Shown here one piece after another: positions 7,519 to 58,717 of a stretch of DNA of 64,000 bases (positions are counted from its first letter, which is position 1; each line of letters begins with the position of its first letter). The DNA comes from Pseudomonadota bacterium (GTDB taxonomy: Bacteria > Pseudomonadota > Gammaproteobacteria > Acidithiobacillales > Acidithiobacillaceae). A program made the translations under genes and the position numbers. The stretch is taken from contig JAKARO010000004.1 of NCBI GenBank assembly GCA_021821885.1, positions 1-64,000 of the forward strand, in the 5' to 3' direction. Under the pieces are notes generated by a model. That model was not told the DNA's origin. It worked only from the letters and a program-made list of their open reading frames with translations, and ran no database searches.

Positions 7519-7832
7519 GTTCCATTTTTCCGGAGGCAGATGGGGGAGGGGGAATCCCGCCCCTTTCTCCCTATGCCAAAATTATCAGTGGTTTTACCCG
7601 GCGCGGAAAATCCTGCCGTCTCATTGACAATACTGGGGCGGCTGATCCTGAAGACCTGCAGAAGCTGCTGGAAGACCTGATCAGTCAGGACCATTTCCGG
7701 CATCTTGGCCTGAGTGCGGCGGGCGGGAATGCCATTCGGCTTGACGCTCCGCAAACTGCGCATGTTCAGCTTGGGGAACGGCTCTACAGGTTGGTGGTGA
7801 TGGACAGTGAGGCGCGGCTGGAAGCGTTCTGA
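7515..7832 (+). CDS. Small protein of unknown function after leuD
   Basis: A 105-residue protein that I do not recognise. The ATG overlaps the leuD stop (ATGA), which supports translation; an in-frame TTG at 7503 is the alternative start. The N terminus is rich in Gly and Pro (about residues 1-20), and the rest alternates charged helices with hydrophobic stretches ([19 protein letters not shown]). There is no signal peptide or membrane segment. It ends 23 bases before the pdxH stop on the other strand. Its link to leucine synthesis is only positional. Confidence 0.6.
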
Positions 7833-7855
7833 AAGACGGGAGTTCCATCCGTTTC

Positions 7856-8506: not shown

Positions 8507-8515
8507 GTGGAAGGC

Positions 8516-9926: not shown

Positions 9927-9989
9927 GGAAGATTTTTCCATTTTGTGATGGGATCCCACCATTCTCCCTGGAGATCAAAAGATTTGCCA

Positions 9990-10013
9990 TAAAAGAATAA
10001 AAGAATAAAAGAA
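9990..10013. repeat. Three tandem copies of an 8-bp repeat
   Basis: TAAAAGAA is repeated exactly three times at 9990-9997, 9998-10005 and 10006-10013. The array lies upstream of the DJ-1 gene on the minus strand, where copy-number change would alter promoter or leader spacing. No function is shown by the sequence. Confidence 0.8.
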
Positions 10014-10180
10014 TGTGAATATCCATTGTTTTCAGAATTATCCTGGGCCGCAATTCCATTCAGGGAAGGGGCTTCCAGAAGACTTTTCTCTTTCAAAATG
10101 GAATTTCAGGAACCAATCTTTGGAGATGGGGGAAACGAACCATAATACAATGAAAAACAACATTTTTTTATTCAAATGCC

Positions 10181-10223
10181 AACCATAAAATTATTAACTT
10201 AAATATTATATTATTTTATGGTT
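10181..10223. repeat. AT-rich 11-bp perfect inverted repeat
   Basis: AACCATAAAAT at 10181-10191 is the exact reverse complement of ATTTTATGGTT at 10213-10223, with 21 AT-rich bases between. It lies in the AT-rich island upstream of the cyo operon and could be a protein-binding site or a cruciform. Confidence 0.7.
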
Positions 10224-10855
10224 TATACATCTAAATTGATTCTGGGGAATCCCAAGAATATTTGAAGTCTATTTCTATTGCTTAAAAAGACTATGCTGAT
10301 TTACTTTATGCCCGCCCAGCAGAGATATCCAAATGCAACATTCTGGATGTGGCACTATTCGTTCCCATCCCATCAAGCTGTGGCCGGAGGGAAAAATGCA
10401 GCATGGAACAGGCCAGCCTCCTTTCAAGAATCCCGGACTTTCTGCCCTGGGTGCTTCCCATCGGGGTGGGCGGTGGCAGTTCCGGCGTAAACCTCCTCTC
10501 CCAGATCTGCACCATATCCAGCAGCGTTTCTATCCCGGTGCTATTCCCCATTTATCCATTCTGGCGGGTTCTGTCGGTACCAGGGTCCGGGGCGGCCAGG
10601 GCGGTACATGTGGAATATGGATCTGGCGCATGGTCTGCGGTGATGCCCATGCAGTGACGGCGCCTGGTGGCCTGACAGGAAGACTGTGGTGTCCGGTCGG
10701 GCGGACGTCCCATCAGGGGATTTCCGGGGGCCTGGTAAAGGGCGGAGACGGTTATGGGCCGCTTCTTCCTCCATCTTTTAGGGGCGGGCCTGGCACACAG
10801 GCAGAAACCGCTAGGAACACGGGGCGTACAAACATCCGTCAGGGAGAAATTGCTT

Positions 10856-11818
10856 ATGCAGACTAGCAGAATAAAACGGCTTGCCGGGATATGGGGATGT
10901 CTCGGTTTTCTCGGGCTTTGGGCCAATACCGCAAATGCCGGCGTGTTTTGGCTTTTTGATCCCAAAGGGGTCATGGCTGACACTGACCTGTACTACATGC
11001 TTGTGGATGTGCTCACCATGGGTGCCATTGTTGGAACTACGGCGCTACTGGTGATCTGGTTCATGTGGCGCTATCACAAGGGAAAAAACAGGGGTTCCTA
11101 TCACCCGGAATGGTCCCATTCCAGCTTTCTGGAGGTGATCGTCTGGGGTGTTCCCATCATTGCGGTTGGTTTTCTGGCCTACTTCGCTGTCAGGGGCACT
11201 TTTGAACTGAACCCGTACGACCCCACCATTCTTACTCGGGTTGCGAAGCCTGCAGAAAAACCGGTCAAGGTGGATGTTATTGCTACCGACTGGCAGTGGC
11301 TCTTTGTCTATCCGCAGTACCACATGGCAGTGGCCAACCAGTTGGTGCTGCCTGAGCACAGGCCCGTTTTTTTTCGCCTGACATCCACGGCAGTTACCTC
11401 CGGTTTTTTTATTCCGCAGCTGGTGGGGATGATTGATGTAATGCCTGGCATGCGTACCAAGAATGCTCTTGAAAGTAGCCATATTGGGGAATATCAGGGG
11501 ATTTCCTCCGATTATGCGGGTGCCGGTACGTCCTGGATGACCTTCAAGACCCATATCGTTGGCCAGGAAGACTTCGCGGGATGGGTGCAGAAAGTACAGT
11601 CTTCCCCGACAACGATGACCGAAGCCCAATTTAATGCCTTCGCCATGCCCTATATCAATGTGCACCATCGTGTCGTGTATTTCTCGCAGGTCCCTTCAGG
11701 GCTGTTTGACCATGTGATCATGGAAGTAATGCACGGCAAAACCTGGCCGGTCCCCCCCATGATGACGGAAAACATGGTGGCGTATATCCAGAAGCAATCT
11801 GCGGAACACCGCGACTAG
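10856..11818 (+). CDS. cyoA: Cytochrome bo3-type quinol oxidase subunit II CyoA
   Basis: A 320-residue haem-copper oxidase subunit II. A signal peptide ending near ANA (residue 28) is followed by two membrane helices and a periplasmic cupredoxin domain. The expected CuA region (FFIPQLVGMIDVMPGM) has no CxxxC copper ligands, as in quinol oxidases, so electrons should come from quinol rather than cytochrome c. DWQWLFVYPQ is a subunit II signature. The ATG at 10856 follows AGGGAGA. It heads cyoABCD-ctaA-like-ctaB. The related bo3 enzyme of E. coli has the same gene order. Confidence 0.93.
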   Translation: MQTSRIKRLAGIWGCLGFLGLWANTANAGVFWLFDPKGVMADTDLYYMLVDVLTMGAIVGTTALLVIWFMWRYHKGKNRGSYHPEWSHSSFLEVIVWGVPIIAVGFLAYFAVRGTFELNPYDPTILTRVAKPAEKPVKVDVIATDWQWLFVYPQYHMAVANQLVLPEHRPVFFRLTSTAVTSGFFIPQLVGMIDVMPGMRTKNALESSHIGEYQGISSDYAGAGTSWMTFKTHIVGQEDFAGWVQKVQSSPTTMTEAQFNAFAMPYINVHHRVVYFSQVPSGLFDHVIMEVMHGKTWPVPPMMTENMVAYIQKQSAEHRD

Positions 11819-43999: not shown

Positions 44000-44081
44000 G
44001 GGTGGGAGAATCCTTGAGACTTGCGCTTTTTCCGGGAGATTGGTTACATTCGCGCTTCAGTCAGCCTGGCATGGAAGCACT

Positions 44082-45167
44082 GTGACAGAAAACGACAGAA
44101 AAACACCGGTTTCCGAACCAGAATCTGTAGAAATCCTGAACCTGGAATCAGCCTTGGCGTTTCAGAAGGAAAGCCTGCAGGCAGTTTCGCGTACGTTTGC
44201 CCTGACTATTCCCAGACTGCCGAACGGGCTGCGCGAGGCTGTCGGGAATGGCTATCTGCTCTGCCGTATAGCGGATACTATTGAAGATGATCCCAATCTC
44301 CCCTATGCAGAGAAAGCCTACTGGCAGAAACGTTTTCTGGAGGTAGTAGAGGGGAGGGACAGCGCGGCGAACTTTGCCTGCGAATACGGATCTGTAATGG
44401 CCGCGAGCCTTTCTGCTGGCGAACATGAACTGATTCGGAATACCCCCCTGGTCATTCGGCTTACCCACAGTTTCAATCCCGCGCAGCGCACGGCTCTGGC
44501 CCGGTGTGTCCGGATCATGGGAACAGGAATGGCTGAATTCCAGCAGCAGGCTTCCCGTTCCGGTTTGCCCGACGGGGCGGCTATGGACCGGTACTGCTAT
44601 GTGGTGGCGGGTGTTGTGGGAGAAATGCTGACGTCACTATTTGTGGATTACGAACCCAGGCTGTGCTCCAAGGAGGAGGAGATGCAGCGTCTTGCCATAT
44701 CTTTTGGGCAGGGGCTGCAGATGACCAATATTCTGAAGGATATCTGGACAGACTGGGAAAGGGGTGTACTCTGGCTGCCACGCAGTTGCCTTCTTGCCCA
44801 TGGGTGTCACCCTGAGATGCTGCATCCTGGAACGGAGGACCCCGGTTTCCGGGGGGCCCTTCTGGAACTTATCCAGATGGCTGCTACCCATCTGGCCAAC
44901 GCCATGCAGTATACGATGAAAATCCCTGCGGACCAGACGGGGATGCGAGACTTCTGTCTTTGGGCCATTGCCATGGCCGTTCTGACCCTCCGCCGCATTT
45001 CTGCCAACCCCCACTTCTGTTCCGGAGAAGAAGTGAAGATTGGTCGTGACAGTGTATACCGGGTTGTCTGGATGACGCGGTTTCTGCACCGTTCCAATGG
45101 ACTGCTGGATCTTGCTTTCCGTGTGGGTGCAAAGCCCCTTACGGTGGTCCGGGAGCCTGCATGCTGA
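44082..45167 (+). CDS. sqs: Squalene synthase (farnesyl-diphosphate farnesyltransferase)
   Basis: A 361-residue trans-prenyltransferase of the squalene synthase type, joining two farnesyl diphosphates to squalene. YLLCRIADTIEDD carries the first aspartate motif (65-70) and QMTNILKDIWTDWERG the second (D220, D224); these and RTFALTIPRLP resemble eukaryote-like Sqs more than the HpnC/HpnD pair. No hpnC, hpnD or hpnE is seen in this window, so squalene probably comes from this single enzyme. GTG 44082 with GGAAG upstream is the chosen start. It heads the hopanoid operon. Confidence 0.85.
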   Translation: MTENDRKTPVSEPESVEILNLESALAFQKESLQAVSRTFALTIPRLPNGLREAVGNGYLLCRIADTIEDDPNLPYAEKAYWQKRFLEVVEGRDSAANFACEYGSVMAASLSAGEHELIRNTPLVIRLTHSFNPAQRTALARCVRIMGTGMAEFQQQASRSGLPDGAAMDRYCYVVAGVVGEMLTSLFVDYEPRLCSKEEEMQRLAISFGQGLQMTNILKDIWTDWERGVLWLPRSCLLAHGCHPEMLHPGTEDPGFRGALLELIQMAATHLANAMQYTMKIPADQTGMRDFCLWAIAMAVLTLRRISANPHFCSGEEVKIGRDSVYRVVWMTRFLHRSNGLLDLAFRVGAKPLTVVREPAC

Positions 45168-47098
45168 TGAAAACCCCACTTTATGGCATTTCGCGCCAGC
45201 CGGGCAGAATGGATTCTGCTCTCCAGCAGAGTCTTGCTGCGGCTCACCGGGCCCTGCTCGGATACCAGGCCGAAGATGGCCACTGGTGTTTTGAGTTTGA
45301 GGCAGACTGCACCATTCCCGCCGAATACATCCTCATGATGCATTACATGGATGAACGGGATTCTGGTCTGGAGGAAAAAATGGCTGTTTACCTGCGCCGC
45401 CATCAGGCAGAACATGGTGGATGGCCCCTCTATTATGGGGGGCACTTCGACATGAGCGCATCGGTAAAGGCATATTATGCACTGAAACTTGCGGGGGATG
45501 ATCCCGATGTGCCCCATATGCGCCGCGCCCGGGCAGCCATTCTTGCCCATGGAGGAGCCGAGCGTGCAAATGTCTTTACCCGTATTACTCTGGCACTGTT
45601 CCAGCAGGTTCCATGGCGTGCGGTGCCTTTTATACCGGTGGAGACTCTTCTTTTTCCCTCCTGGTTCCCCATGCATATATACAAAGTGGCATCGTGGTCG
45701 CGAACAGTCATGGTGCCCCTTTTTATCCTGTGCAGCCTGAAAGCCAGAGCAAAGAACCCCTTGGGTATTGGCATTGCGGAACTGTTCTGCCAGCCTCCAG
45801 AAGAGATTTCCGACTATTTTGCCCATGCCCGTCGGGGATGGATTTCCTGTATTTTTCTGTGGTTTGATGCTGCCGGGCGTGCGCTGGAGACTTTTATTCC
45901 TGCCTGGTTGAGGCGCAAGGCAGTATGTAGGGCGGAATCCTGGTTTACGGCAAGACTGAACGGTGAAGACGGACTCAACGGCATTTTCCCGGCGATGGTG
46001 AATGCCCATGAGGCCCTTGCCCTGCTAGGGTACCCTCCCGAGCATCCCTATCGCCAGCAGACCGGAGCAGCCCTCCGGAAACTCTTGGTAGAGCGCTCCC
46101 ATGAAGCGTACTGCCAGCCCTGTGTATCTCCGGTCTGGGACAGCTGTTTGGCTCTTCATGCACTGCTGGAGTGCCAAGGTGAGCCTGGCCCCGCAGGCGA
46201 GAAATGCATCCAATGGTTGCTGGAGCGCCAGATCACCGAGGAGCCGGGCGACTGGCGTGAAAGACGCCCCGGACTCCCGGGTGGAGGCTGGGCATTCCAG
46301 TACCGCAATGCATATTACCCGGATCTGGACGATACGGCAGCGGTTGCCTGGGCGCTCACCCGCGCTGCCCGGCCAGAAGACCGGCCAGTGGTAGAAAGGG
46401 CAGCCGACTGGTTGGCTGGGATGCAGTCGCGTTCTGGTGGCTTCGGGGCATACGATGCAGAAAATACCTGCTATTACCTCAACGAGATACCCTTTGCAGA
46501 CCATAAGGCGCTCCTGGATCCACCGACCGCCGATGTGACCGGGCGGGTTGTGGCATTCCTGGCCGCCCTTGGCCGGCCCAAGGATGGGCCCGTGGTCAAA
46601 CGGGCCGTAGGTTACCTGATCCAGGAGCAGGAACCGGCAGGATGCTGGTTTGGACGCTGGGGGACCAACTACATCTATGGTACCTGGTCGGTACTGATGG
46701 CGCTCGCGGAGCTCCAGGATCCTGCCTTGCAGGGAGTCATAGAACGGGCAGGGGACTGGCTGCGTTCGGTGCAGCAGCCTGACGGAGGCTGGGGGGAGAG
46801 CAATGATTCCTATGCCGATTCTGGTCTGGCCGGATTGGGACAGTCTTCCACAGCGGCGCAGACAGCCTGGGCCTGTCTTGGGCTCATGGCTGCGGGGGAC
46901 CGGGACAGCGAGAGCCTGCGCCGGGGCATTTTCTGGCTCCAGGCCCACCAGGAGCGTGGTGGAGACTGGCAGGATCCATTTTTTAATGCTCCGGGTTTCC
47001 CGCGCGTGTTCTATATTACCTACCATGGCTACAAGGCCTATTTCCCGTTGTGGGCATTGGCACGCTACCGGAATCTGACGGAGGAGACTTGCGGCTAG
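45161..47098 (+). CDS. shc: Squalene-hopene cyclase (HpnF)
   Basis: A 645-residue membrane-associated triterpene cyclase converting squalene to hopene and hopanol. The catalytic DXDD acid is D388-L-D390-D391 in YPDLDDTAA. Several QW repeats are seen, such as GGWGESNDSY and GGDWQDPFFN, with WGTNYIYGTW near the C-terminal active site. Length matches the family (about 630-660). The start overlaps the squalene synthase stop; ATG 45161 has GGGAG five bases upstream, and ATG 45167 is an alternative. Confidence 0.96.
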   Translation: MLMKTPLYGISRQPGRMDSALQQSLAAAHRALLGYQAEDGHWCFEFEADCTIPAEYILMMHYMDERDSGLEEKMAVYLRRHQAEHGGWPLYYGGHFDMSASVKAYYALKLAGDDPDVPHMRRARAAILAHGGAERANVFTRITLALFQQVPWRAVPFIPVETLLFPSWFPMHIYKVASWSRTVMVPLFILCSLKARAKNPLGIGIAELFCQPPEEISDYFAHARRGWISCIFLWFDAAGRALETFIPAWLRRKAVCRAESWFTARLNGEDGLNGIFPAMVNAHEALALLGYPPEHPYRQQTGAALRKLLVERSHEAYCQPCVSPVWDSCLALHALLECQGEPGPAGEKCIQWLLERQITEEPGDWRERRPGLPGGGWAFQYRNAYYPDLDDTAAVAWALTRAARPEDRPVVERAADWLAGMQSRSGGFGAYDAENTCYYLNEIPFADHKALLDPPTADVTGRVVAFLAALGRPKDGPVVKRAVGYLIQEQEPAGCWFGRWGTNYIYGTWSVLMALAELQDPALQGVIERAGDWLRSVQQPDGGWGESNDSYADSGLAGLGQSSTAAQTAWACLGLMAAGDRDSESLRRGIFWLQAHQERGGDWQDPFFNAPGFPRVFYITYHGYKAYFPLWALARYRNLTEETCG

Positions 47099-47784
47099 GC
47101 ATTCTGGTAGCGCTGGAGGCCGAAGCCCTTGCCTTGGGCGTCCGCGGTCCCCAGACTGGCTGTGTACAGCCCTTCGGCCGTGACCGACTTCTGGTGGTTT
47201 CGGGCATGGGACCCGATAATGCCGAACAGGCAGGGATGGCTCTGGTTAGACAGGGGGCAGAAGCCCTGCTGAGCATTGGAACCGCTGGTGCCCTTGATCC
47301 CGGTCTTGCCCCAGGAAAAATGTGTCTCCCCAGGGAGGTGCTCTGGCAGGGGCGGCGCTATCCCTGTGATGCAAGTCTGCGGCAGGATATTTTTCTCGCT
47401 GCTTGCGGTCCGGTGTCTGAGGAGCTTCTGCTATCTGTGGCCACTCCCTGTGCAAGTCCCATGGAAAAGAGGGCAGCTTTCACGCGCTGTGGTGCTGCAG
47501 CCGTCGATATGGAAAGTGGGGCGCTTGCCGCACTGGCGGAGCAGTATTCCTGTCCTTTCGCTGTTTTCCGGGTGATTGTGGACAGTGCCGGCCTCGCACT
47601 TCCTGCGGCTGTACTGAAGGGGGTGGACCCCTATGGCCGGGTTCGTCCGTTGCCCTTCCTTTGGCAGCTACTCAGGGGTCCAGCCCAGGTGGCCGATCTC
47701 TGGGGTCTGAGGCAGGGGATGATGGCGGCTTCAGGACCTTTGGCGGTATTGGGAGGGTTTCTTGCTGGAGGACCGGGGGCATGA
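47089..47784 (+). CDS. hpnG: HpnG, adenosylhopane nucleosidase/phosphorylase
   Basis: A 231-residue protein of the MTA/SAH nucleosidase (PNP/UDP) superfamily. In hopanoid synthesis HpnG removes adenine from adenosylhopane to give ribosyl- or phosphoribosyl-hopane. LSIGTAGAL and the AAVDMESGALAAL segment (the VDMES nucleoside-binding motif) are visible. TTG 47089, behind GGAGGAG and overlapping the shc stop region, begins MRLGILVALEAEALA as in homologues. The stop overlaps the hpnA ATG. Confidence 0.9.
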   Translation: MRLGILVALEAEALALGVRGPQTGCVQPFGRDRLLVVSGMGPDNAEQAGMALVRQGAEALLSIGTAGALDPGLAPGKMCLPREVLWQGRRYPCDASLRQDIFLAACGPVSEELLLSVATPCASPMEKRAAFTRCGAAAVDMESGALAALAEQYSCPFAVFRVIVDSAGLALPAAVLKGVDPYGRVRPLPFLWQLLRGPAQVADLWGLRQGMMAASGPLAVLGGFLAGGPGA

Positions 47785-48770
47785 AGGCCCTGGTCACAGG
47801 CGCGTCGGGTTTTGTGGGTGGCGCAGTTCTGCGTTTTCTGGCCGGCCAGGGTGTGGAGGCCAGGGTACTCGCGCGGCCCGGGGCAGATCCCGCAAACTGG
47901 GAATCCCTCCCGGTGGAAACTGTTTCGGGGGACCTGGAGGATGCGGAGAGTCTCCGTCGGGCCGTCCAAGGCTGCCGCTGGATTTTTCATGTGGCCGCCG
48001 ATTACCGTCTATGGGTCCCGGACCCGGTTCCGATGTACGCCAGCAACGTGGGCGGGACTGAACAGCTGATCCGGGCTGCCCTGGATGCAGGGGCCGAGCG
48101 TATCGTCTATACAAGCAGTGTGGCCGTTCTGGGCTTTTATGGGGATGGGCGGTCCAGCGACGAGAAGGCCCCGGCACGCCTTGAGGACATGATCGGGCAT
48201 TATAAACGTTCGAAATACCTGGCCGAGGAGCGGGTACGTAGCCTCTGCGAGAACGAGGGCGCGCCGGTGGTCATCGTCAATCCGTCTACACCCATTGGCC
48301 CGGCGGACCGCAAGCCCACTCCAACCGGACGTCTCGTCCGGGATGCCGCGGCAGGGAAGATACCTGCCTATGTGGATACGGGCCTGAACGTTGTCCATGT
48401 GGATGACGTGGCAGCAGGCCACTGGCTCGCCCTGCACAGGGGGCAGACCGGGCAGCGCTACATCCTGGGGGGGGACAATCTTCCTCTGTCTGCCATCCTG
48501 ACCCGGATTGCCGGCCTTACCGGCCACTCTTCTCCCCGGTGGCAAATTCCCCGGCGCTTCCTGTATCCCCTCGCTTGGGCGGGTGAACAATGGATCCGCT
48601 GGCGTGGATACGGCACGCCACTGGTCACCCTGGACGAACTGCGGATGGCCGCGCACCATATGTATTTTACTTCCGTCAAGGCAGAAAACGAACTGGGCTA
48701 TTCGCACCGGCCGGCGGAGGAGGCGCTGCGGGATGCGGTAGCCTGGTTTGCCGGGAATGGCTATTTTTAG
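47781..48770 (+). CDS. hpnA: HpnA, hopanoid-associated sugar epimerase
   Basis: A 329-residue extended short-chain dehydrogenase. The Rossmann loop is TGASGFVGGAVLRFL at the start and the catalytic YxxxK is in HYKRSKYLAEERV, with NPSTPIGPADRKPTPTGRLV following, a segment typical of HpnA. Its exact reaction in side-chain tailoring is not firmly known. ATG 47781 overlaps the hpnG stop (ATGA). It is 11 bases from hpnI. Confidence 0.92.
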   Translation: MKALVTGASGFVGGAVLRFLAGQGVEARVLARPGADPANWESLPVETVSGDLEDAESLRRAVQGCRWIFHVAADYRLWVPDPVPMYASNVGGTEQLIRAALDAGAERIVYTSSVAVLGFYGDGRSSDEKAPARLEDMIGHYKRSKYLAEERVRSLCENEGAPVVIVNPSTPIGPADRKPTPTGRLVRDAAAGKIPAYVDTGLNVVHVDDVAAGHWLALHRGQTGQRYILGGDNLPLSAILTRIAGLTGHSSPRWQIPRRFLYPLAWAGEQWIRWRGYGTPLVTLDELRMAAHHMYFTSVKAENELGYSHRPAEEALRDAVAWFAGNGYF

Positions 48771-48781
48771 GTCCCCGACGC

Positions 48782-49936
48782 ATGGGCTCACTGATTCTGC
48801 CATTGTTTGCAGGGCTGCTGCTTTCGGCCAGCGCAGTGTACTGGATTGCTGCCTGGCTGTGCGTGTGGCGCTGGCGGCCGCAGCTTGCAGACGACCAGAT
48901 CCAGGAGCCGGAAGCGGAAGCCCGCGCCTGGCCAGCGGTAACCCTGCTCAAACCGTTGCACGGAGCTGAGCCCGATCTGGAGAAGAATCTCCGATCCTTC
49001 TGCGAGCAGGATTACCCGCAATATGAAGTCCTCTGTGGTGTACAGCATGCTGGTGACCCTGCTATTTTCACTGTAGAAACCCTGCAGCAGCACCATCCGG
49101 AGTATCCCCTGCGCCTGATCGTGCATGATACCCATCTTGGACAGAATCCCAAGGTCAGCAACCTGGCCGGCATTTTCACCGAGGCCCGCTATCCGGTGCT
49201 GGTACTGAGTGATGCGGACATCCAGGTAGGGCGTGACTATCTGCGCAGTCTGGTTTCTGGTCTGGAGGTTCCCGGAGTAGGGGTGGTGACCTGCCTCTAC
49301 CGTGCAAGGACCCATGGTGGTTTCTGGTCCAGCCTCCTTGCGGCCCAGATCCAGGAAGCCTTTTTGCCCTCCGTCCTGCTGGCGGCCCGGATGGGTCCCC
49401 AGATCTACTGTGCAGGTGCGACGATTGCACTGCGAAGCAGTCTGCTGGAGCGCTGGGGGGGATTTGCCGCTATGGAGGATGTCTTGGCCGACGATTTTTT
49501 TATCGGCGCAAAGGCCAGAGAACTGGGTCTTTCGGTAATGCTCTCAAGGTATGTGGTCGATACGGCGGTTGAGGAGCCCGGTTTCAGGGATTTCTATGCC
49601 CATGCCCTGCGCTGGGCACGCACTACCCGGGCAGTCCGGCCGGGAGGGTATGCCCTGTCGTTCATTACCTTCCCTTTGCCGCTCGCGCTGTGCTGCGGGC
49701 CATTCCTTGGTTGGCGGGGCTGGCTGCTGGCGGGGCTGGCCCTAGGATTGCGGGTCATGTACCATAATACAATTGTGCGGAAACTGCGGTCGCCCGTTCC
49801 GCTGGCTGCGGCTGTCCTTGCGGATTTTTTGGGGATCTGGATCTGGGGACATGCGCAGCTGGCCGGCCGGGTAAGCTGGCGTGGACGCAGTTTTTCCATT
49901 GACGCCCTGGGGCGCATGCGAAATGGGGTAGAATGA
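48782..49936 (+). CDS. hpnI: HpnI, hopanoid glycosyltransferase
   Basis: A 384-residue GT2-family (ceramide glucosyltransferase-like) membrane enzyme with an N-terminal helix and two or three C-terminal helices. VTLLKPLHGAEPDLEKNLRSF, LVLSDADIQV (the DxD-type metal site) and ADDFFIGAKARELG are typical. HpnI is reported to add N-acetylglucosamine to bacteriohopanetetrol. ATG 48782 lies 11 bases after the hpnA stop. The gene overlaps hpnJ by four bases. Confidence 0.92.
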   Translation: MGSLILPLFAGLLLSASAVYWIAAWLCVWRWRPQLADDQIQEPEAEARAWPAVTLLKPLHGAEPDLEKNLRSFCEQDYPQYEVLCGVQHAGDPAIFTVETLQQHHPEYPLRLIVHDTHLGQNPKVSNLAGIFTEARYPVLVLSDADIQVGRDYLRSLVSGLEVPGVGVVTCLYRARTHGGFWSSLLAAQIQEAFLPSVLLAARMGPQIYCAGATIALRSSLLERWGGFAAMEDVLADDFFIGAKARELGLSVMLSRYVVDTAVEEPGFRDFYAHALRWARTTRAVRPGGYALSFITFPLPLALCCGPFLGWRGWLLAGLALGLRVMYHNTIVRKLRSPVPLAAAVLADFLGIWIWGHAQLAGRVSWRGRSFSIDALGRMRNGVE

Positions 49937-51363
49937 TGACCATGAAGACGTTGTTTCTGCAGGCTCCTTCTTTCGAGGGGTTCGATGGAGGGGCGGGATC
50001 CAGGTATCAGGCGAAGCGGGAAATCCGTTCCTTCTGGTTCCCTACCTGGCTGGCCCAGCCTGCAGCAATGGTTCCCGGAAGCCGTCTTCTGGATGCGCCG
50101 CCAGCCGATGTAAGCGTGGAAGAGACGCTCCATATCGCGGCTTCCTATGAGCTTTGCATCATCCACACGAGCACCCCTTCCTTTGCCTCGGATGTGCGGA
50201 TGGCGGAGATGCTGAAAGAGCATTATCCCTCCATGGTGATCGGCATGGTGGGAGCAAAGGTGGCGGTCGAGCCCGAGGATTCGCTGCTGGCGTCCCAGGC
50301 CATTGACTTTGTTGCCCGCGAGGAATTTGACTATACCATCCAGGAAATTGCCGAAGGGCGCAGTCTGGATTCCGTGGATGGCATTACCTATCGGGACGGA
50401 AAAGGAAAGGTGGTCCACAACCCGGACCGGGCCATGATCGAGGACATGGATTCACTGCCCTTCGTTTCGGAAGTCTACCATCGGGACCTGCGGGTAGAAG
50501 ACTATTTTATTGGCTACCTGAAGCACCCCTACATTTCTTTCTACACAGGCCGCGGGTGCCGCTCCCAGTGTACCTTCTGCCTGTGGCCACAGACAGTGGG
50601 CGGGCACCGCTACCGTACGCGCAGCCCGGCAAGTGTTATCGAGGAAGTCAAATACATCCAGAAGACCTTTCCCCAGGTGAAAGAAATTTTCTTCGACGAT
50701 GACACATTTACGGATGATCGTCCTAGGGCTGAAGAGATCGCCCGTGGTCTGGGCAGGCTTGGGGTGACCTGGTCGTGCAATGCCAAAGCAAACGTTCCGT
50801 ATGAAACCCTCAAGGTCCTCCGGGAGAATGGTCTGCGTCTCCTGCTGGTTGGCTATGAATCTGGAGACCAGCAGATTCTGAACAACATCAAAAAAGGGCT
50901 CAAGGTGGAAGCGGCGCGCAAGTTTACCGCAGACTGCCACCGACTGGGCATCAGCATTCATGGTACCTTTATTTTGGGGCTCCCTGGGGAAACCCGGGAA
51001 ACCATACAGAAGACTATCGAGTTTGCCAAGGAAATCAATCCCCATACCATCCAGGTCTCCCTCGCGGCACCCTATCCTGGTACCTATCTGTACAACCAGG
51101 CCAAGGAGCAGGGGTGGCTGACGGATGAGGACGAATCCCATCTGGTCAATGACCGGGGCGTCCAGATCAGTCCCATGAGCTACCCGCACCTGAATCATAC
51201 GGAAATTTTTGATTCGGTTGAGACAATGTATAAAAAATTCTACTTCCGCGCCGGCAAAATTGCGGAAATAACGGGTGAAATGCTGCGCAGCTCCCAGATG
51301 ATGAAGCGGCGCCTGCGGGAAGGGGTGGAATTCGTGCGGTTCCTGCGCCAGCGTCACGGTTGA
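49933..51363 (+). CDS. hpnJ: HpnJ, radical SAM enzyme for hopanoid cyclitol formation
   Basis: A 476-residue radical SAM protein with a B12-binding-like N-terminal domain (about 60-160). The [4Fe-4S] ligands are C209, C213 and C216 in GRGCRSQCTFC. EIFFDDDTFTDDRPRAEEI is a typical follow-on. HpnJ is linked to conversion of hopanoid glucosamine to the cyclitol ether. ATG 49933 overlaps the hpnI stop; ATG 49936 and 49942 are close alternatives. The stop overlaps the hpnK TTG. Confidence 0.93.
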   Translation: MMTMKTLFLQAPSFEGFDGGAGSRYQAKREIRSFWFPTWLAQPAAMVPGSRLLDAPPADVSVEETLHIAASYELCIIHTSTPSFASDVRMAEMLKEHYPSMVIGMVGAKVAVEPEDSLLASQAIDFVAREEFDYTIQEIAEGRSLDSVDGITYRDGKGKVVHNPDRAMIEDMDSLPFVSEVYHRDLRVEDYFIGYLKHPYISFYTGRGCRSQCTFCLWPQTVGGHRYRTRSPASVIEEVKYIQKTFPQVKEIFFDDDTFTDDRPRAEEIARGLGRLGVTWSCNAKANVPYETLKVLRENGLRLLLVGYESGDQQILNNIKKGLKVEAARKFTADCHRLGISIHGTFILGLPGETRETIQKTIEFAKEINPHTIQVSLAAPYPGTYLYNQAKEQGWLTDEDESHLVNDRGVQISPMSYPHLNHTEIFDSVETMYKKFYFRAGKIAEITGEMLRSSQMMKRRLREGVEFVRFLRQRHG

Positions 51364-52241
51364 GCAGCATCGTACCTGGGATACGGCGGCTTGTTTTTAA
51401 CGCCGATGATTTTGGACTTGATCCTGCGGTCAACGAAGCTGTGGAATCGGGCTTCTGCAATGGGGTTCTTACGAGTGCCAGCCTGATGCCTGGGGCACCG
51501 GCAGCCGCAGATGCGGTGCAGCGGGCCAGGAAGTTGCCCGGGCTAGCGGTGGGGCTGCACTTGACCCTTGTGGACGGTTCACCGGTGTTGCCACCCGACC
51601 GTGTACCAGCCCTTGTGGGCAGCGACGGACGTTTCGCCCCTGACCTGTGGAAGCGCAGTTTCCGGTATTTTTTTCTTCCCCAGGTGCGGCGGCAGCTGGA
51701 GGATGAGATTCGCGCCCAGTACGCGGCTTTTTCGGACACGGGGCTCCATCTCGATCATGCCAATGCCCACAAGCACCTGCACCTGCATCCCACGGTACTG
51801 GACCTGATGCTCCGGGTGGGCCGGGAGCATGGGCTCCGCGCGGTGCGTGTGCCCCGGGAGCCAGTTTCCCTGGCGAGGAAAATCGCCCCCATGGCCTGGA
51901 GTGCTGTGGTGGGGGCGGGGATGCTTTCTCCCTGGATAGGCCGAATGGCACGCCGCATCCGTGGGTATGGGCTGTTCAGCAATGATCTTTTGCTGGGGCT
52001 GCAGGCAACCGGCAGGATGGATCTGCCCCGCGTGCTGCGGATTCTCGCCCTGCTGCCTCCCGGAAGCACGACGGAAATCTATTTTCATCCGGCGGTTGAG
52101 CAGACGTCCTTTTTGCGCCAGCTAATGCCCGATTATAGCCCGGTAGCCGAGTGGCAGGCGCTCTGCAGTCCGGAACTGCGCGCTGCCCTGGAGAAGCAGG
52201 ATATCGAGGTGGGAAGTTACAGTGATTTTTCCCGGCGTTGA
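51360..52241 (+). CDS. hpnK: HpnK, hopanoid N-acetylglucosamine deacetylase
   Basis: A 293-residue ChbG/YdjC-family carbohydrate deacetylase. The metal- and acid/base residues lie in NADDFGLDPAVNEAV, LHLTLVDGSPV and LHLDHANAHKHLHLHPTVL. HpnK removes the acetyl group left by HpnI. The TTG start overlaps the hpnJ stop as TTGA and begins MSSIVPGIRRLVFNADDFG at the family's usual place. The end overlaps hpnN by 20 bases. Confidence 0.92.
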   Translation: MSSIVPGIRRLVFNADDFGLDPAVNEAVESGFCNGVLTSASLMPGAPAAADAVQRARKLPGLAVGLHLTLVDGSPVLPPDRVPALVGSDGRFAPDLWKRSFRYFFLPQVRRQLEDEIRAQYAAFSDTGLHLDHANAHKHLHLHPTVLDLMLRVGREHGLRAVRVPREPVSLARKIAPMAWSAVVGAGMLSPWIGRMARRIRGYGLFSNDLLLGLQATGRMDLPRVLRILALLPPGSTTEIYFHPAVEQTSFLRQLMPDYSPVAEWQALCSPELRAALEKQDIEVGSYSDFSRR

Positions 52242-54918
52242 ACGCTTTCTGGAGCGCCTTGGTAGGGTCTACCTCCAGCTGCTTGTCCGGATAGTAGATT
52301 TTTCTGTTACCCGTGCGAAAGTCACGGTGGGGCTGTTTCTGCTGCTGGTCCTGGGAGCCGGTTTTTATGCGTCCGGGCACTTTGCTGTGGATACCAATAC
52401 CAGCAATGTGCTGTCCCGGGATTTGCCCTTCCAGCAGCGGCAGATAGACTATAAAAAAGCTTTCCCCCAGGATCCGGAGAGCATTGTGGTCGTCCTCCAG
52501 GGCCGGGATGCGTCGGCTACTGATGCCGCAGTAGACAGGCTGGAAGTATGGCTGCGCGACCGCCCCGCGCTGTTCCGGGACGTTTATGTACCCGGAGGAG
52601 GGAGTTTTTTCCGCCGAAACGGGCTGCTGTATCTTTCTGTCGCCCAGGTCAAGGATTTTGCCAGCCGGATTACCCAGGCGCAGCCCCTGATCGCACGCCT
52701 GTCCGCGGATCCGAGTCTTGCGGGCCTGAGCGACCTCCTGAGCCAGGCAGTTCATCAGCGGCTTCAGGACGGTACCAGCATCCCAGGGCTGACGCCCATA
52801 TACAATGCTTTCACGCAAAGCATTGAAGCCCAGCTTGAGGGGCATTCATACCACGTATTCTGGGCGAGCCTTATGGCCGGTGGCTCAGCGCATCTGGGCC
52901 CCCAAAAGCGTTTTGTAATTATCGAGCCGGCACTGAATTATGGGTCTCTCCGGCCAGCGCAAAAAGCCATTCTGGCATTGCGCTCGGGATTGAAGCAGAT
53001 AGGGCTCGGTCCAGCGTCAGGGGTACAGGTTGGTATTACCGGACAGGCCGTTCTGGATTCGGAGCAGATGAAGACGGTCAGCCAAGGGGCCTTTTTTTCG
53101 TTGGCGCTGACCCTTGGGCTGGAAATCCTGCTGCTCGTCGTCTCACTCCGCACTGCCCGCCTGGTTATTGGCGTTCTGCTTAACCTTGTAGCTGGCATGG
53201 TTCTGACCGCCGCCTGGGCCCTGTTTTTTATCGGCCCCTTCAACCTGATCTCGATCGCTTTTGCCATTCTTTTTATTGGTCTTGGGGTGGATTTTGGCAT
53301 CCAGTTCGGTTTCCGGTTCCGGGAGGAACTTTTTAACGGTGCTGCCCATCGTGAAGCGCTGCGACGAGTGGCTAGGGGGATGGGGGGTGCTCTAACCCTC
53401 TCTGCAGTCTCTGCGGCCATCAGTTTTTATGCCTTTGTGCCCACCAGCTATGCAGGAATAGTGGATCTTGGTCTTGTGTCCGGGACGAGCATGCTGATCG
53501 CCCTTGTGCTTACCCTGACGCTGATGCCTGCCATCCTCACTCTCTGGCCCGTTTCTCCATCGGCCCTGAAACACGTTACCTTTCCCCACCTCCAGCATGC
53601 ACCGACCCTGGCCCGGCACCGGATCCACCGCTATGCCTATGTGGTCCTCGCCGGAGTGGGATTGCTCGCCATTCTTGCCGTTCCTGCGGCCTTGCGGGTG
53701 TCCTTTGATTTTAACCCACTCCACATGATTGACAGTCACGCGGAGGGTGTCCGGGTTTTCGAGTCCCTGCTGGGAAATCCGGATACTGCACCGTACCGTA
53801 TCGAGGTCCTGGCACCGGATCTTTCAGCGGCCGGAGCAGTCGCCCAGCGCCTCGAAAAACTGCCTTCTGTTTCCCGGGCTCTAACCTTGAAGAGTTATCT
53901 GCCCGTGCATCAGGGGGAGAAACTGGGGATCCTTGAGAATCTCCAGATTCTGGTTCCGCCTTTTTCCCTCCTGATGCCGGCCACCTTGGCGCCACCCAAA
54001 GCGGATACCCTGAAAAAGCTGGAGGCCTTGCAGAAAAGTCTGGCCCAGCTGGCCTCCATGGACAATTCCGGGCAAGGCAAGGCTGCAGGACGGCTGGCTG
54101 CAGCGCTGGCCCGGTTTTTTCCTGAAGCAGGAAGTAATTTTCAGGCAGTGGGGAAACTGCAGCAGTCGCTGCTGGGAACGCTGCCGGCAGAGCTGCGGCA
54201 GCTTGGGCAGGTCCTGATGGCTTCCAGGGTCACAATGGCGGATCTCCCCGAATCTCTGCGGAGCCGCTATGTAAATGCACAGGGACAGGCCAGGGTTGAG
54301 GTTTTCCCAAAGGAAAACCTGAGCAGCAATGTCCAGATGAAACGGTTCGTCAATTCCGTCCTGCAGGTGGAGCCGGACGCGGTAGGAACCCCGATTATGC
54401 TGGTCGAAGGCGGCGATGCCGTGCTGGCCTCTTTCCAGGAGGCCACCTATATCGCCCTTGTGGCCATTGGCCTGCTGCTCGTTCTGACCCTCCGCCGCTA
54501 CCGGGACATGCTTCTTGTTATGGCCCCCCTTCTTCTGGCGGCCCTTTTTACCGTTGCAGCCATGACCCTCCTGGGATTGCAGTTCAACCTGGGAAACATC
54601 ATTGTGCTGCCACTTCTGATCGGCCTTGGGGTTGCCTTTGGCATCTACATTGTGATCCGGTGGCGCAGCGGGATCGATGCGGCCCACCTTCTGCAGACAT
54701 CTACCCCCATGGCTGTCTTTTTCAGCGGGCTGACCACGCTTAGCGCTTTTGGCAGCATGGCGCTTTCCAGTGATCCTGGAATGTCTACCCTTGGAGAAGC
54801 CCTGAGCCTTTCCCTTGCCATAGTTCTGCTCTGTATTCTCGTAGTACTGCCCGCCCTGCTGCTGCTTTTTACCGAATCGCCCAAAGAAGATGGGGTTGCC
54901 CAAGATGAAGGCAGCTAG
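52222..54918 (+). CDS. hpnN: HpnN, RND-family hopanoid transporter
   Basis: An 898-residue MMPL/RND protein with twelve helices in two blocks (about 35-50 plus 285-450, and 470-490 plus 755-890) and two large periplasmic loops. IAFAILFIGLGVDFGIQFGFR and VLPLLIGLGVAFGIYIVIR are the paired RND helix-4 segments. HpnN moves hopanoids to the outer membrane in Rhodopseudomonas. GTG 52222 with GGGAAG upstream lies inside the hpnK end. The gene overlaps the next by 29 bases. Confidence 0.93.
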   Translation: MIFPGVERFLERLGRVYLQLLVRIVDFSVTRAKVTVGLFLLLVLGAGFYASGHFAVDTNTSNVLSRDLPFQQRQIDYKKAFPQDPESIVVVLQGRDASATDAAVDRLEVWLRDRPALFRDVYVPGGGSFFRRNGLLYLSVAQVKDFASRITQAQPLIARLSADPSLAGLSDLLSQAVHQRLQDGTSIPGLTPIYNAFTQSIEAQLEGHSYHVFWASLMAGGSAHLGPQKRFVIIEPALNYGSLRPAQKAILALRSGLKQIGLGPASGVQVGITGQAVLDSEQMKTVSQGAFFSLALTLGLEILLLVVSLRTARLVIGVLLNLVAGMVLTAAWALFFIGPFNLISIAFAILFIGLGVDFGIQFGFRFREELFNGAAHREALRRVARGMGGALTLSAVSAAISFYAFVPTSYAGIVDLGLVSGTSMLIALVLTLTLMPAILTLWPVSPSALKHVTFPHLQHAPTLARHRIHRYAYVVLAGVGLLAILAVPAALRVSFDFNPLHMIDSHAEGVRVFESLLGNPDTAPYRIEVLAPDLSAAGAVAQRLEKLPSVSRALTLKSYLPVHQGEKLGILENLQILVPPFSLLMPATLAPPKADTLKKLEALQKSLAQLASMDNSGQGKAAGRLAAALARFFPEAGSNFQAVGKLQQSLLGTLPAELRQLGQVLMASRVTMADLPESLRSRYVNAQGQARVEVFPKENLSSNVQMKRFVNSVLQVEPDAVGTPIMLVEGGDAVLASFQEATYIALVAIGLLLVLTLRRYRDMLLVMAPLLLAALFTVAAMTLLGLQFNLGNIIVLPLLIGLGVAFGIYIVIRWRSGIDAAHLLQTSTPMAVFFSGLTTLSAFGSMALSSDPGMSTLGEALSLSLAIVLLCILVVLPALLLLFTESPKEDGVAQDEGS

Positions 54919-55945
54919 ACTGTGGGTCTGGAAGCGCCACGAATTTTGGGTGGCCGTGATGCTCCTTATAGGGCTGGGATTTACCATTTTTCTTGTGGCA
55001 GACGAGGGGGCTGCGACCATTTTTGGTATGCTGGACAGGGGAGGGTGGTCTCTTCTGCTCCTGCTCCCGGTACATGTGCTGGTAATCTCATTGGATGCCG
55101 TCAGCTGGCGCTGGCTGCTGCAGGGACAGAGGCGCGTCAGGCTGCGTCTGCTTGTCTGGCTGGCGCTGCTCCGGGAAGCGATCAATGCCCTGCTTCCAGT
55201 AGCCCGTGTGGGGGGGGAGATTGTAGGTGCCCGCATGCTGGCCCGCGCTGGTGTTCCAGGGTATGTAGCAGGAGCCAGCATCATGGTTGAGGTCAGCCTG
55301 ACACTCCTGAGCCAGTTCCTGTTTACGCTTGTGGGCTTCATGATCCTGGTTTATGCAGTAGGAGACCGCCACCTCCAGGACGTTGTACTCCTTTTCCTGC
55401 TGTCCGTCCTGCCCCTGTTGGGTGTGTTCTTCTGGCTGCAGAAACGCTGGGGATTTTTCTACCTCCTGCAGCAGGGTCTGAAACGTGTCATGGGCGGCAC
55501 GGACTGGCTGCTTCTGCTTGGTGAACCCAGGCAGCTGGACCAGGAAATCCGGCGTATCTATAGGCGGAGATGGGGGCTCCTCTGGGCCAACTTCTGGCAG
55601 CTTGGCAGCCTGTTTGCCGGCGCTGTCGAGGTTTGGCTTACATTCCTGCTTCTCGGGCACCCGATACCGATTTGGGCCGCCGTGCTGATGGAAAGCCTGG
55701 GGCAGGCCCTGCGCAGTATGGCTTTCTTTATGCCCGCGGGGCTGGGCGTACAGGAGGGGGGGGTTGTCCTTTTTGGCAGTGCCATTGGGGTTGGGCCAGA
55801 TCTGGCCTTGGCCTTCTCTCTGGTGCGCAGGTTCCGCGAACTGGCTTTGGGGATTCCACTCCTCCTCCACTGGTATCTGTCAGAAGGGTACCATATCAGA
55901 ATGGAATGGCAGAAAAGCCGCTCCTCGAGGGAGAGGGTTGTATGA
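54890..55945 (+). CDS. hpnL: HpnL-like membrane protein
   Basis: A 351-residue protein with about eight membrane helices of the lysylphosphatidylglycerol synthase membrane-domain (UPF0104) type. [21 protein letters not shown] near residue 100 and [21 protein letters not shown] near 285 are the conserved loops of this family. In hopanoid clusters this type is named HpnL; its reaction is unknown. The start is ATG 54890 or 54905; both overlap hpnN. Its stop overlaps the ferritin-like gene in an ATGA. Confidence 0.75.
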
Positions 55946-56805
55946 ATGGGGGAGTGACGGAATCCTCGCCTCTGAATCCCCGGGATCCGGGGTATAGGGA
56001 CCGTTTCTGCAGTTTTTTTCATGAGACCCATATCGAATTCGATCCGCACGGGATCCAGTGGCCCGATCTGGATGCTGATGCCGAACGGCGCCTGAGATCC
56101 CTGCCATTCTGGGGGGAGGCGGTCGCAACGGAAAGTGTGACGGCGCGGATGGTGCAGCACATGGCGGCAAAGGAACCTGATCCGGTTGTGCGGGCAGCCA
56201 TTGCCCTGGACGGGCTGGAGGAAATGCGGCATGCAGAGCTGCTGCAGGCCCTTGTGAGCCACTATGGCATCAAGATTCCTCCTCTTCCAGAACCTCCGCC
56301 TATCCGGGATCCCTACTGGGAATTCCTGTTTACCGGGTATGGCGAGTGCCTAGATTCCTATTTTGCGTTTGGGCTGTTTGCCGCAGCCAGAAAATCGGGA
56401 TTTTTCCCTGCGGAACTGGTCGAAATTTTTGATTCTGTCATGCAGGAGGAGGCGCGTCATATCATTTTTTTCGTCAACTGGCTGGCCTGGTACCGGCAGC
56501 AGCTTCCGTGGTGGAAAAAAATCCGGCTGGAATTCCAACGGATCCAGGTGATTGCGATGCAGGCCTGGGCGCGGATCCGGACTGCCAGGGGTTTGGGCGG
56601 GCAGAAGGGAGAAAATTTTACGATGACCGGTCATGAGCAGGTTAGTCAGGAGATGACTCTCTCCGGGCTGCTGGCGCTCTGCCGGAAAGAGAATGACCGG
56701 CGCTTCTCGCTTTATGACCAGGAACTGCTGCGTCCAAAACTGGCACCACGCATTGCAAATTTCCTGCTGTTTTTCTTTTCCCGCAGGCGTGCAGCTAGGA
56801 CATGA
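55942..56805 (+). CDS. Ferritin-like diiron protein in the hopanoid operon
   Basis: A 287-residue protein with a four-helix core and a complete predicted diiron site: E64 in helix 1, E94-x2-H97 in helix 2, E135 in helix 3 and E170-x2-H173 in helix 4. This E/ExxH/E/ExxH pattern is that of ferritin-like oxygenases and desaturases rather than of iron-storage cages, which are much shorter. The rest of the protein is basic and aromatic-rich ([11 protein letters not shown]) with a hydrophobic end ([11 protein letters not shown]), which suggests membrane contact. ATG 55942 overlaps the hpnL stop. A tailoring oxidation of hopanoids is inference. Confidence 0.75.
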
Positions 56806-56896: not shown

Positions 56897-58000
<1,104 letters not shown>

Positions 58001-58018: not shown

Positions 58019-58717
58019 ATGTCTGGAAAATCGAGCAAGAGTGGCTGGATGCTACGTGGAACAGGAAGCCTGAAGGCAGCAGTACTGCTTGCGGCCCTGG
58101 CACCGGTAGGATTTTATGCCGCCATAGAAACGCCAGCGGTGGGGCAGGTAGAAAAAAAAGCCCCGGCCCCGGCTGCTGCGGCGCCTGCTTCAGTCATCGG
58201 TACCCTGGACAGAGCTCTGCTTGAGGCTATGAAGAGCGGACAGAGGCTGGGATATGCAGGCCGCTATAAACGGCTTTCCCCCGTGCTCGACAGGGTTTTC
58301 AACTTCCCCCGCATTGCGCAGCTGACTCTGGGCAGTAACTGGGGACGCCTTGATCCCGGCCAGCAGAAGCAGTTTGTTACTGCCCTGCGCAACTATACGA
58401 TAGCAACATACGCCGGGCGCTTCGATGCGTATGCCGGAGAACGCTTTGCCATCACCGGAAGCCGCAGCTTGCAGCCCGGGACAGTAGGGGTGTTTACGAC
58501 ATTTACGGAGAAAAATGGCAAGATCCACAGGTTTGACTATCTCCTCCAGAAGCAGGGAAATGTCTGGCAAGTGATCAATGTGGTGGCCGATGGAGTGAGT
58601 GATCTTTCGCTCAAACGGGCTGAATATACGGATACACTCGAGAAAAAAGGATTTGGCGCGTTGCTGGCCCACCTCCAGAAGCAGATGGATGCCTACGCCT
58701 CAGGCAGGAAAAAATGA
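58019..58717 (+). CDS. hpnM: HpnM, MlaC/Ttg2D-like periplasmic lipid carrier
   Basis: A 232-residue protein with a signal-type N terminus (helix about 17-35), an Ala/Pro linker and an MlaC-type lipid-binding domain. RLSPVLDRVFNFPRIAQLTLGSNW and FDYLLQKQGNVWQVINVVADGVSDLSLKRAEY are family signatures. HpnM is thought to carry lipid across the periplasm for HpnN or the Mla pathway. The ATG at 58019 has a poor Shine-Dalgarno site. The end overlaps mlaA in an ATGA. Confidence 0.88.
   Translation: MSGKSSKSGWMLRGTGSLKAAVLLAALAPVGFYAAIETPAVGQVEKKAPAPAAAAPASVIGTLDRALLEAMKSGQRLGYAGRYKRLSPVLDRVFNFPRIAQLTLGSNWGRLDPGQQKQFVTALRNYTIATYAGRFDAYAGERFAITGSRSLQPGTVGVFTTFTEKNGKIHRFDYLLQKQGNVWQVINVVADGVSDLSLKRAEYTDTLEKKGFGALLAHLQKQMDAYASGRKK

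Follow-up and report, generated by a model that had tools for sequence, protein, structure and literature searches.

The hopanoid operon and the FLP gene

The window analysed here, a stretch of 64,000 nucleotides from a member of the Acidithiobacillaceae (contig JAKARO010000004.1), carries a hopanoid operon in which a gene for a 287-residue protein lies between hpnL and hpnH (55942-56805, forward strand). This protein is referred to as FLP and its sequence in the window as P0001. Our analysis revealed that FLP belongs to an unnamed family within a known metalloenzyme superfamily, with a strong new pathway link: among the genomes checked, it is found only alongside the capacity for bacteriohopanepolyols (BHPs). 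A hopanoid role of FLP is well supported, by gene content more than by clustering. Hopanoids are bacterial analogues of sterols and major molecular fossils, and FLP is a good candidate, concrete and testable, for an oxygen-dependent hopanoid-tailoring enzyme, its chemistry being a well-founded guess.

The FLP reading frame starts with ATG, and its 287 codons are followed by a stop codon ending at 56805. An earlier note on this DNA had described an ATGA overlap with hpnL and a position just before hpnH, and both were confirmed, hpnH starting after a gap of 91 nt. The order of the operon is squalene-synthase-like gene, shc, hpnG, hpnA, hpnI, hpnJ, hpnK, hpnN-like gene, hpnL, FLP, hpnH, hpnM and mlaA-like gene (Table 1), where the hpnN-like and mlaA-like genes are presumed to be such from position. 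Shared strand and the overlap suggest that FLP is co-transcribed with the hopanoid genes. The promoter scan at the operon was uninformative (6 sites found against 5.7 expected), and the promoter and terminator scan led nowhere. The order HpnL-FLP-HpnH was found in all ten named Acidithiobacillus and Igneacidithiobacillus loci. The place of FLP in the operon was already known, since the legend of figure 6 in a 2022 paper prints the cluster as sqs-hpnFGAIJKNL-ferritin-hpnHM (PMC8886135); the accessible part of that paper gives no function for this 'ferritin', and no title or abstract in the open-licence literature searched assigns one to FLP.

Table 1. Coordinates in the window of the FLP gene, its sequence features and the neighbouring hopanoid genes
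Feature	Position	Strand	Remarks
Squalene-synthase-like frame, operon head	44040..45167 (also given 44085-45164)	+	TIGR01559 below cut-off; start not settled
shc (hpnF), squalene-hopene cyclase	45161..47098	+	NCBIfam over cut-off
hpnG	47050..47784	+	NCBIfam just under cut-off, 176.5 vs 187.1 bits
hpnA	47784..48770	+	NCBIfam over cut-off
hpnI, glycosyltransferase	48785..49936	+	NCBIfam over cut-off
hpnJ, radical S-adenosylmethionine (SAM) protein (cyclitol ether)	49933..51363	+	NCBIfam over cut-off
hpnK	51360..52241	+	NCBIfam over cut-off
hpnN-like transporter	52222..54918	+	Position, length, tblastn conservation; name presumed
hpnL	54890..55945	+	TIGR03476 over cut-off; recurrent FLP neighbour
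ATGA overlap, hpnL stop/FLP start	55942..55945	+	
FLP gene	55942..56805	+	287 aa, dinuclear-metal oxidase-like, hopanoid-associated family, clade I
Codons of predicted four-helix bundle, residues 56-187 (helices 56-77, 81-107, 124-152, 157-187)	56107..56502	+	AlphaFold2 model
Putative metal ligand E64, first bundle helix	56131..56133	+	Invariant in 44/44 rows
Putative metal ligands E94-x2-H97, second bundle helix, EExRH motif	56221..56232	+	Invariant in 44/44 rows
Putative metal ligand E135, third bundle helix	56344..56346	+	Invariant in 44/44 rows
Putative metal ligands E170-x2-H173, fourth bundle helix, EEARH motif	56449..56460	+	Invariant in 44/44 rows
Basic/hydrophobic C-terminal tail, residues 262-287, LLRP motif, predicted helix 267-286	56725..56802	+	
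hpnH, adenosyl-hopene transferase (radical SAM)	56897..58000	+	TIGR03470 over cut-off
hpnM (MlaC-like)	58019..58717	+	NCBIfam over cut-off

Conservation of the family and its ligand set

The ligands of a ferritin-like centre listed in the earlier note (E64, E94-x2-H97, E135 and E170-x2-H173) were found at exactly these residues, as was the basic, aromatic and hydrophobic tail at residues 262-287. The family alignment comprises 44 rows and 43 distinct sequences, one row being a copy of P0001. All six ligands, together with E93 and E169, are invariant in every row, and the ligand set is therefore not a matter of chance; W40, W57, R96, G132, C136, G144, R172, F177 and N179 are likewise invariant. 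The most hydrophobic 19-residue stretch of FLP reaches a Kyte-Doolittle mean of only 0.94. Compared with the Acidithiobacillus loci, the nonsynonymous divergence of FLP is 0.145-0.229 (10 loci), against 0.309-0.431 for hpnL (9 loci), 0.292-0.388 for hpnK (8 loci), 0.207-0.268 for hpnA (6 loci) and 0.088-0.119 for hpnH (10 loci). The rate of FLP is thus close to that of hpnA, lying above hpnH and below hpnL and hpnK, with synonymous divergence saturated or not computable in many pairs.

A search of genome contigs yielded 16 loci with FLP relatives, namely ten from Acidithiobacillus and Igneacidithiobacillus, two from metagenome-assembled genomes (MAGs) labelled 'Alphaproteobacteria', one each from MAGs labelled Rhodospirillaceae, Marinimicrobia and Eremiobacterota, and one from Azospirillum oleiclasticum. 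In addition, tblastn against a plasmid collection gave 13 FLP records from Burkholderia, Cupriavidus, Caballeronia and Paraburkholderia, a B. cenocepacia record among them. The FLPs of the loci with the Marinimicrobia (L015) and Rhodospirillaceae (L014) labels are near-identical, with tree branches of 0.02-0.03 and a downstream frame that, judged by eye, is similar; L015 probably comes from an alphaproteobacterium and was mis-binned.

No NCBIfam model matches FLP at E up to 1. With Pfam, also at E up to 1, P0001 matched AurF (PF11583) alone, below threshold (16.9 bits against a gathering cut-off of 29.6) and over 56 residues, while among 18 family members 12 weakly matched AurF (best 2.3e-5), 7 rubrerythrin and 6 Ferritin_2.

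Predicted fold and comparison with known enzymes

An AlphaFold2 model of FLP was built on an 18-row alignment, with a mean predicted local distance difference test score (pLDDT) of 85.7 and a predicted template modelling score of 0.85; pLDDT is below 50 at residues 1-6 and 219-229. The model shows a four-helix bundle with E, ExxH, E and ExxH on successive helices, E64 being carried by helix 56-77, E94 and H97 by helix 81-107, E135 by helix 124-152, and E170 and H173 by helix 157-187. Additional helices are predicted before the bundle (18-28 and 45-53) and after it (190-220, 226-235, 240-255 and 267-286). The earlier note would have been contradicted by a fold whose ligands do not face one another; as far as the model goes, the four long helices each carry a ligand set, and the fold resembles that of O2-activating dinuclear enzymes.

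With Foldseek, 530 PDB matches were obtained at an E limit of 10; the best had E 4.3e-3, and none reached 1e-3. Among the best 50 of the 530, 49 were ribonucleotide reductase R2 or R2-like ligand-binding oxidase (R2lox), and one was a phenol hydroxylase chain. The R2 and R2lox matches within these 50 had probabilities of 0.99-1.00, template modelling (TM) scores of 0.41-0.57 (R2lox 0.46-0.57, R2 0.41-0.54), root-mean-square deviations (rmsd) of 6.4-11.8 and identities of 10-16%. The model assigns FLP to the O2-activating dinuclear enzymes, but no more closely than at the level of the superfamily. R2lox and R2 resemble FLP in their length and in the all-alpha dinuclear-metal bundle predicted for it; R2lox binds a fatty acid, and the titles of its PDB entries state a Mn/Fe pair. 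However, neither phmmer nor a profile search matched FLP to their sequences at E up to 1, so the resemblance is one of fold and not of family membership, and FLP has features of its own in the EExRH and EEARH motifs and the conserved C-terminal LLRP segment. Soluble acyl-acyl carrier protein (acyl-ACP) desaturases and bacterial multicomponent monooxygenases share with FLP the (D/E)ExRH motifs on two helices and a ligand set of four Glu and two His. The phenol hydroxylase chain adds to the resemblance, while no acyl-ACP desaturase was present among the best 50 of the 530 matches, and none of the 18 members gave a Pfam match to either group at E up to 0.1.

The ferritin-like ligand set, the weak rubrerythrin and Ferritin_2 matches mentioned above, and the nearest named relatives, which we take to be acidophilic iron and sulfur oxidisers, would all suit a hopanoid-linked iron, redox or stress protein (ferritin-like storage protein, peroxidase or sensor). 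We consider this improbable, because the modelled fold of the 287 residues is R2/R2lox-like and extended by helices at both termini, no ferritin appeared among the best 50 of the 530 Foldseek matches, and the presence of HpnH in every FLP genome, described below, would be surprising for an iron or stress protein of general function. An iron-storage ferritin or bacterioferritin in particular was rejected on fold, family scans and gene content.

A MiaE-like tRNA-prenyl hydroxylase or an AurF-like N-oxygenase, present in the operon by chance, was also weighed. MiaE hydroxylates a prenyl group, and the family profile searched against the PDB found MiaE-like tRNA hydroxylases nearest (5ux1, E 0.006; 8fhb, E 0.04), ahead of a beta-lactamase (E 0.08) and a hypothetical protein (E 0.31); the ExxH helices and an LDSF segment align. 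AurF matches FLP weakly around the second ligand helix, in 12 of the 18 members at E up to 0.1. Nevertheless, both matches lie below curated or convincing thresholds, and when P0001 was searched as a single sequence the photosystem protein PsaO came first (E 0.005), ahead of 5ux1, so that the PDB sequence matches can be taken only as leads. Moreover, the MiaE-like alignment covers only about profile positions 59-179, and in it the third-helix Glu of FLP falls on no Glu of the MiaE-like chain. The gene content of FLP follows hopanoids, and HpnH in 25 of 25 genomes would be left unexplained. Such an enzyme is thus very improbable, the least likely of the alternatives considered here. Membership of either family was rejected as sub-threshold (for AurF, the P0001 score given above; for MiaE, E 0.006 over 121 profile positions with the third-helix Glu unaligned).

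Co-occurrence of FLP and HpnH

Gene content carries the hopanoid case. The samples of 398 Pseudomonadota genomes searched for FLP and for HpnH share handles and were taken as one draw; in it FLP was found in 14 genomes and HpnH over its cut-off in 49, all 14 FLP genomes being HpnH-positive (hypergeometric p 3e-14, kinship ignored). Scoring took the best first-look candidates of each genome (six for FLP and five for HpnH in the phylum sample, seven in family f183), and the FLP and HpnH counts are lower bounds. The HpnH search covered the phylum sample, family f180 (that of G358), the family of G535 (Azospirillum oleiclasticum), G136 and the genomes behind loci L012-L017. For FLP, the genomes behind L012-L016 were covered at these loci. 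In the class sample FLP was present in 2 of 143 genomes (G000 and G136). G136 and the six genomes behind L012-L017, the Eremiobacterota-labelled one included, were all HpnH-positive (7/7). In f180, FLP was found in 3 and HpnH in 16 of 159 genomes, with all three FLP genomes nested (p 9e-4). The G535 family, whose genomes may overlap the phylum sample, had FLP in 3 and HpnH in 38 of 79 genomes, again with 3/3 nested, although p is 0.11 and not significant on its own. Family f183 (that of G172) had no real FLP among 323 genomes, a marginal match in G895 (E 7e-4, 60 residues) having been left out of the homologue count, and 10 of its members in the phylum sample were HpnH-positive (nine of genus g244, one of g315). 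All five HpnH-positive f185 genomes of the phylum sample carried FLP. Altogether, HpnH over the cut-off accompanied FLP in 25 of 25 genomes and FLP did not occur without it, the systematic survey covering the Pseudomonadota.

Linkage to hpn genes and partner genes

Linkage was assessed with a panel of 12 window proteins, FLP among them, in flanks of up to about 10 kb a side, and since the panel is limited to these proteins the linkage found is a lower bound. FLP lies near hpn genes in 10 of the 25 genomes (G000, G428, G274, G358, G625, G641, G571, G532, G533 and G537), shows none within the flanks in 13 and is cut off by contig ends in 2; it appears, therefore, that the gene often travels alone. 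The earlier note had derived the hopanoid link from operon position, which holds for this lineage, as its ten Acidithiobacillus loci attest, but not in general: homologues mostly outside hopanoid clusters were to count against it, and about half of the genomes fit that description, yet all 25 are HpnH-positive. With clustering not general and co-occurrence complete, it is the gene-content argument that carries the hopanoid case. A recent survey reports that hpnO, hpnP and hpnR are also often outside the hpn cluster (PMC12583986). Of the two plasmid-collection records inspected for linkage, the Cupriavidus locus L050 is linked and the Burkholderia locus L049 is not. The order HpnI-HpnJ-HpnK-FLP was found in all three f180 FLP genomes, with HpnL next in two.

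HpnJ over its cut-off was found in 15 of 23 FLP genomes (not found in 8) against 9 of 35 HpnH-positive genomes free of FLP (p 0.006). A strict tie of FLP to cyclitol-ether synthesis was accordingly rejected, HpnJ being enriched but not required.

Adjacency to HpnL in several lineages raises the question of whether the target of FLP is a lipid or protein partner in hopanoid transport, where FLP would work together with HpnL or HpnN and be linked to hopanoid structure only indirectly. The function of HpnL is, in the part of the 2025 survey available, described as unestablished (PMC12583986), which leaves room for such a role. However, HpnL over its cut-off was found in 19 of 25 FLP genomes against 29 of 55 HpnH-positive genomes free of FLP (p 0.054), and four FLP genomes have no HpnL match at E up to 1e-20. 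A transport role is about as improbable as an iron or stress function. A strict tie of FLP to HpnL was rejected, as only 19 of the 25 genomes have it.

No dedicated electron donor was recognised near the orphan FLP genes (10 proteins scanned), the eight neighbours being Clp protease (two), FMN reductase, flavin monooxygenase, GMC oxidoreductase, chemoreceptor, hydrolase and one unmatched protein. The FMN-reductase-domain frame lies upstream of FLP on the same strand in L036 of G458 (7609-9039) and might serve as its electron donor; the remaining neighbours scanned at orphan loci lacked this domain. The Clp protease gene adjoins FLP in two f185 genomes of different genera (L043 8744-9400 and L045 10697-11881), an adjacency that probably reflects common descent.

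The reaction of FLP

Hopanoids with delta-6 or delta-11 ring unsaturation have been reported since the 1980s, and the earlier note had proposed a hydroxylation or desaturation of hopanoids. The hopanoid part of that proposal is supported by the co-occurrence with HpnH, while the reaction itself is conjectural. A 2025 survey of 54 alphaproteobacteria, as far as its available text goes, describes the genes for ring desaturation to unsaturated BHPs as unknown, and likewise those for the fifth and sixth side-chain hydroxyls of bacteriohopanepentols and -hexols, for which no candidate gene was found; it reports no obvious new candidates near hpn clusters (PMC12583986). According to its text, pentols and hexols are confined to Rhodospirillales and Sphingomonadales. 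In our count of its Table 3, whose strains were chosen, making the comparison weak, pentols or hexols occur in 9/10 Acetobacteraceae, 6/8 producing Sphingomonadales and 2/3 Azospirillaceae, and unsaturation in 8/10, 1/8 and 1/3, respectively. The 19 producing Hyphomicrobiales include one with pentol (1%) and two with unsaturation (Enterovirga 1%, Afipia 43%). Within the surveyed strains, Komagataeibacter and Gluconobacter are rich in both unsaturated and pentol BHPs, Afipia broomeae is unsaturated but free of pentol, and Sphingomonas mali and Rhodopila globiformis have pentol but no unsaturation.

From our side, f180 probably corresponds to the sphingomonads, f185 to the acetic acid bacteria and f183 to the Bradyrhizobium/Afipia family. 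The presence of FLP in 5/5 HpnH-positive f185 genomes and its absence from f183 fit both the unsaturation and the pentol distributions. The rate of 3/16 in HpnH-positive f180 genomes, if these are sphingomonads as we infer, differs from the pentol rate (Fisher p 0.02) but not from the unsaturation rate (p 1.0). It therefore agrees better with unsaturation, which is rare there, than with pentols, which are frequent, and we lean weakly towards desaturation rather than side-chain hydroxylation. Cultures of B. cenocepacia gave mass spectrometry features that were annotated as cyclitol ethers of the 6-ene and pentol types, with a putative double-bond position (PMC8560942). Regarding the oxygen dependence of pentols in Rhodopila, the available part of PMC8590665 says nothing on pentols.

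With a probability of roughly 0.62, we regard FLP as an O2-activating enzyme with a carboxylate-bridged dinuclear centre, which would belong to the R2/R2-like oxidase fold class and tailor the BHPs that arise downstream of HpnH. Within this interpretation a ring desaturation is the reaction we tentatively favour, at clearly less than even odds overall, and a hopanoid oxidation of some other kind is quite improbable. Hydroxylation of the side chain at C-31 or C-30 to bacteriohopanepentol or -hexol, with the second position served by the second clade of the family, takes a smaller share of the same probability and is rather unlikely. It would agree with the confinement of pentols and hexols to two orders in which no candidate gene is at hand (PMC12583986), with FLP in 5/5 HpnH-positive f185 genomes against 0/323 in f183, and with the fact that the nearest PDB profile match, MiaE, is a hydroxylase; the f180 rate argues against it, with the assignment of that family as above, as does the preference of the survey authors, in the text available, for an oxidation-hydration route to pentols and hexols (PMC12583986).

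As for metal content, use of O2, substrate, product, membrane binding and electron donor, we infer the following scheme. A Fe/Fe or possibly Mn/Fe pair would be held by E64, E94, H97, E135, E170 and H173. The reduced pair would bind O2 and take hydrogen from a C-H bond of a hopanoid held in the bundle, while an amphipathic basic stretch at the bundle end and the basic hydrophobic tail would keep FLP at the membrane. The product would be a ring double bond (delta-6, with delta-11 perhaps made by the second clade) or an extra side-chain hydroxyl, as in bacteriohopanepentol or -hexol. If this is true, unsaturated or polyhydroxylated hopanoids would be tied to an O2-using enzyme, which bears on reading such hopanoids as signs of oxygen.

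Several observations weigh against such an enzyme. FLP is absent from 82 of 107 HpnH-positive genomes and must therefore be an optional addition to BHP synthesis, and 13 of the 25 FLP genomes show no hpn gene near it. Beyond the Pseudomonadota at most two genomes, judged by label, have FLP (Eremiobacterota, and the Marinimicrobia label that looks mis-binned), and the survey there included no HpnH-negative genomes. The Foldseek E-values are weak (best 4e-3) and the rmsd large (6.4-11.8), so that the fold match holds at superfamily level only, and among the operon genes none was recognised as an electron-transfer partner. In Afipia broomeae, 43% of the BHPs are unsaturated (PMC12583986), yet no real FLP was found in the 323 genomes of f183, its probable family; Afipia thus counts against FLP as the only desaturase. 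In the G535 family FLP is present in 3 of 38 HpnH-positive genomes, against 1/3 unsaturated and 2/3 pentol-bearing among the surveyed Azospirillaceae (PMC12583986). The BHPs of A. thiooxidans, given as bacteriohopanetetrol (BHT), aminotriol and BHT cyclitol ether in the accessible part of PMC8886135, include no unsaturated or pentol form. 

For the same hopanoid unsaturation step, 'sterol desaturase' candidates (hpnX) have been proposed (PMC6460317; PMC12583986). The candidate described in the available text of PMC6460317 is an integral-membrane protein with His motifs, whereas FLP is a predicted four-helix protein whose hydrophobicity peaks at the mean of 0.94 given above.

Two FLP clades

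A maximum-likelihood tree was computed from 43 sequences, after one of the 44 rows had been dropped and a fused frame of 610 residues trimmed to residues 1-300. Midpoint-rooted, it separates clade I (37 rows, including P0001) from clade II (6 rows) with 100/100 support; some branches are long and the inner order is unsure. Clade I is also present in four of the six clade II genomes (G532, G274, G479 and G571), and the single FLP match of G136 belongs to clade II; the Eremiobacterota-labelled genome was covered at its FLP locus. In G571 and G532, copies of both clades stand directly before an HpnL over its cut-off. A soluble dinuclear-metal desaturase family, with delta-6 made by clade I, delta-11 by clade II and both by the fused protein, is conceivable, though we regard it as doubtful.

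The fused frame is that of L038 in G479 (8848-10602, reverse strand), in which clade I and clade II sequences are joined by a charged linker with no stop between; counted from where the clade I match begins, it spans 610 residues. Apparently it is a natural fusion of the two paralogues, and two linked, distinct activities of the clades on one substrate would fit. Compact modules of FLP-I, FLP-II and HpnL occur in L060 of G571 (8169-10950, reverse strand) and in L012 (9893-14433), the latter with two clade I copies. The G571 module lies on a different contig from HpnH and contains a second HpnL over the cut-off.

Other genes of the operon

The squalene-synthase-like protein at the head of the operon scores 109 bits with TIGR01559, far under the cut-off of 287, and is therefore of a divergent type. 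HpnA (47784-48770) also resembles the sterol demethylase protein SdmB, which ranks second among its NCBIfam matches at E 3e-57 but stays under the cut-off. This hints at a dehydrogenase acting on the lipid, rather than a sugar epimerase, as the possible role of HpnA.

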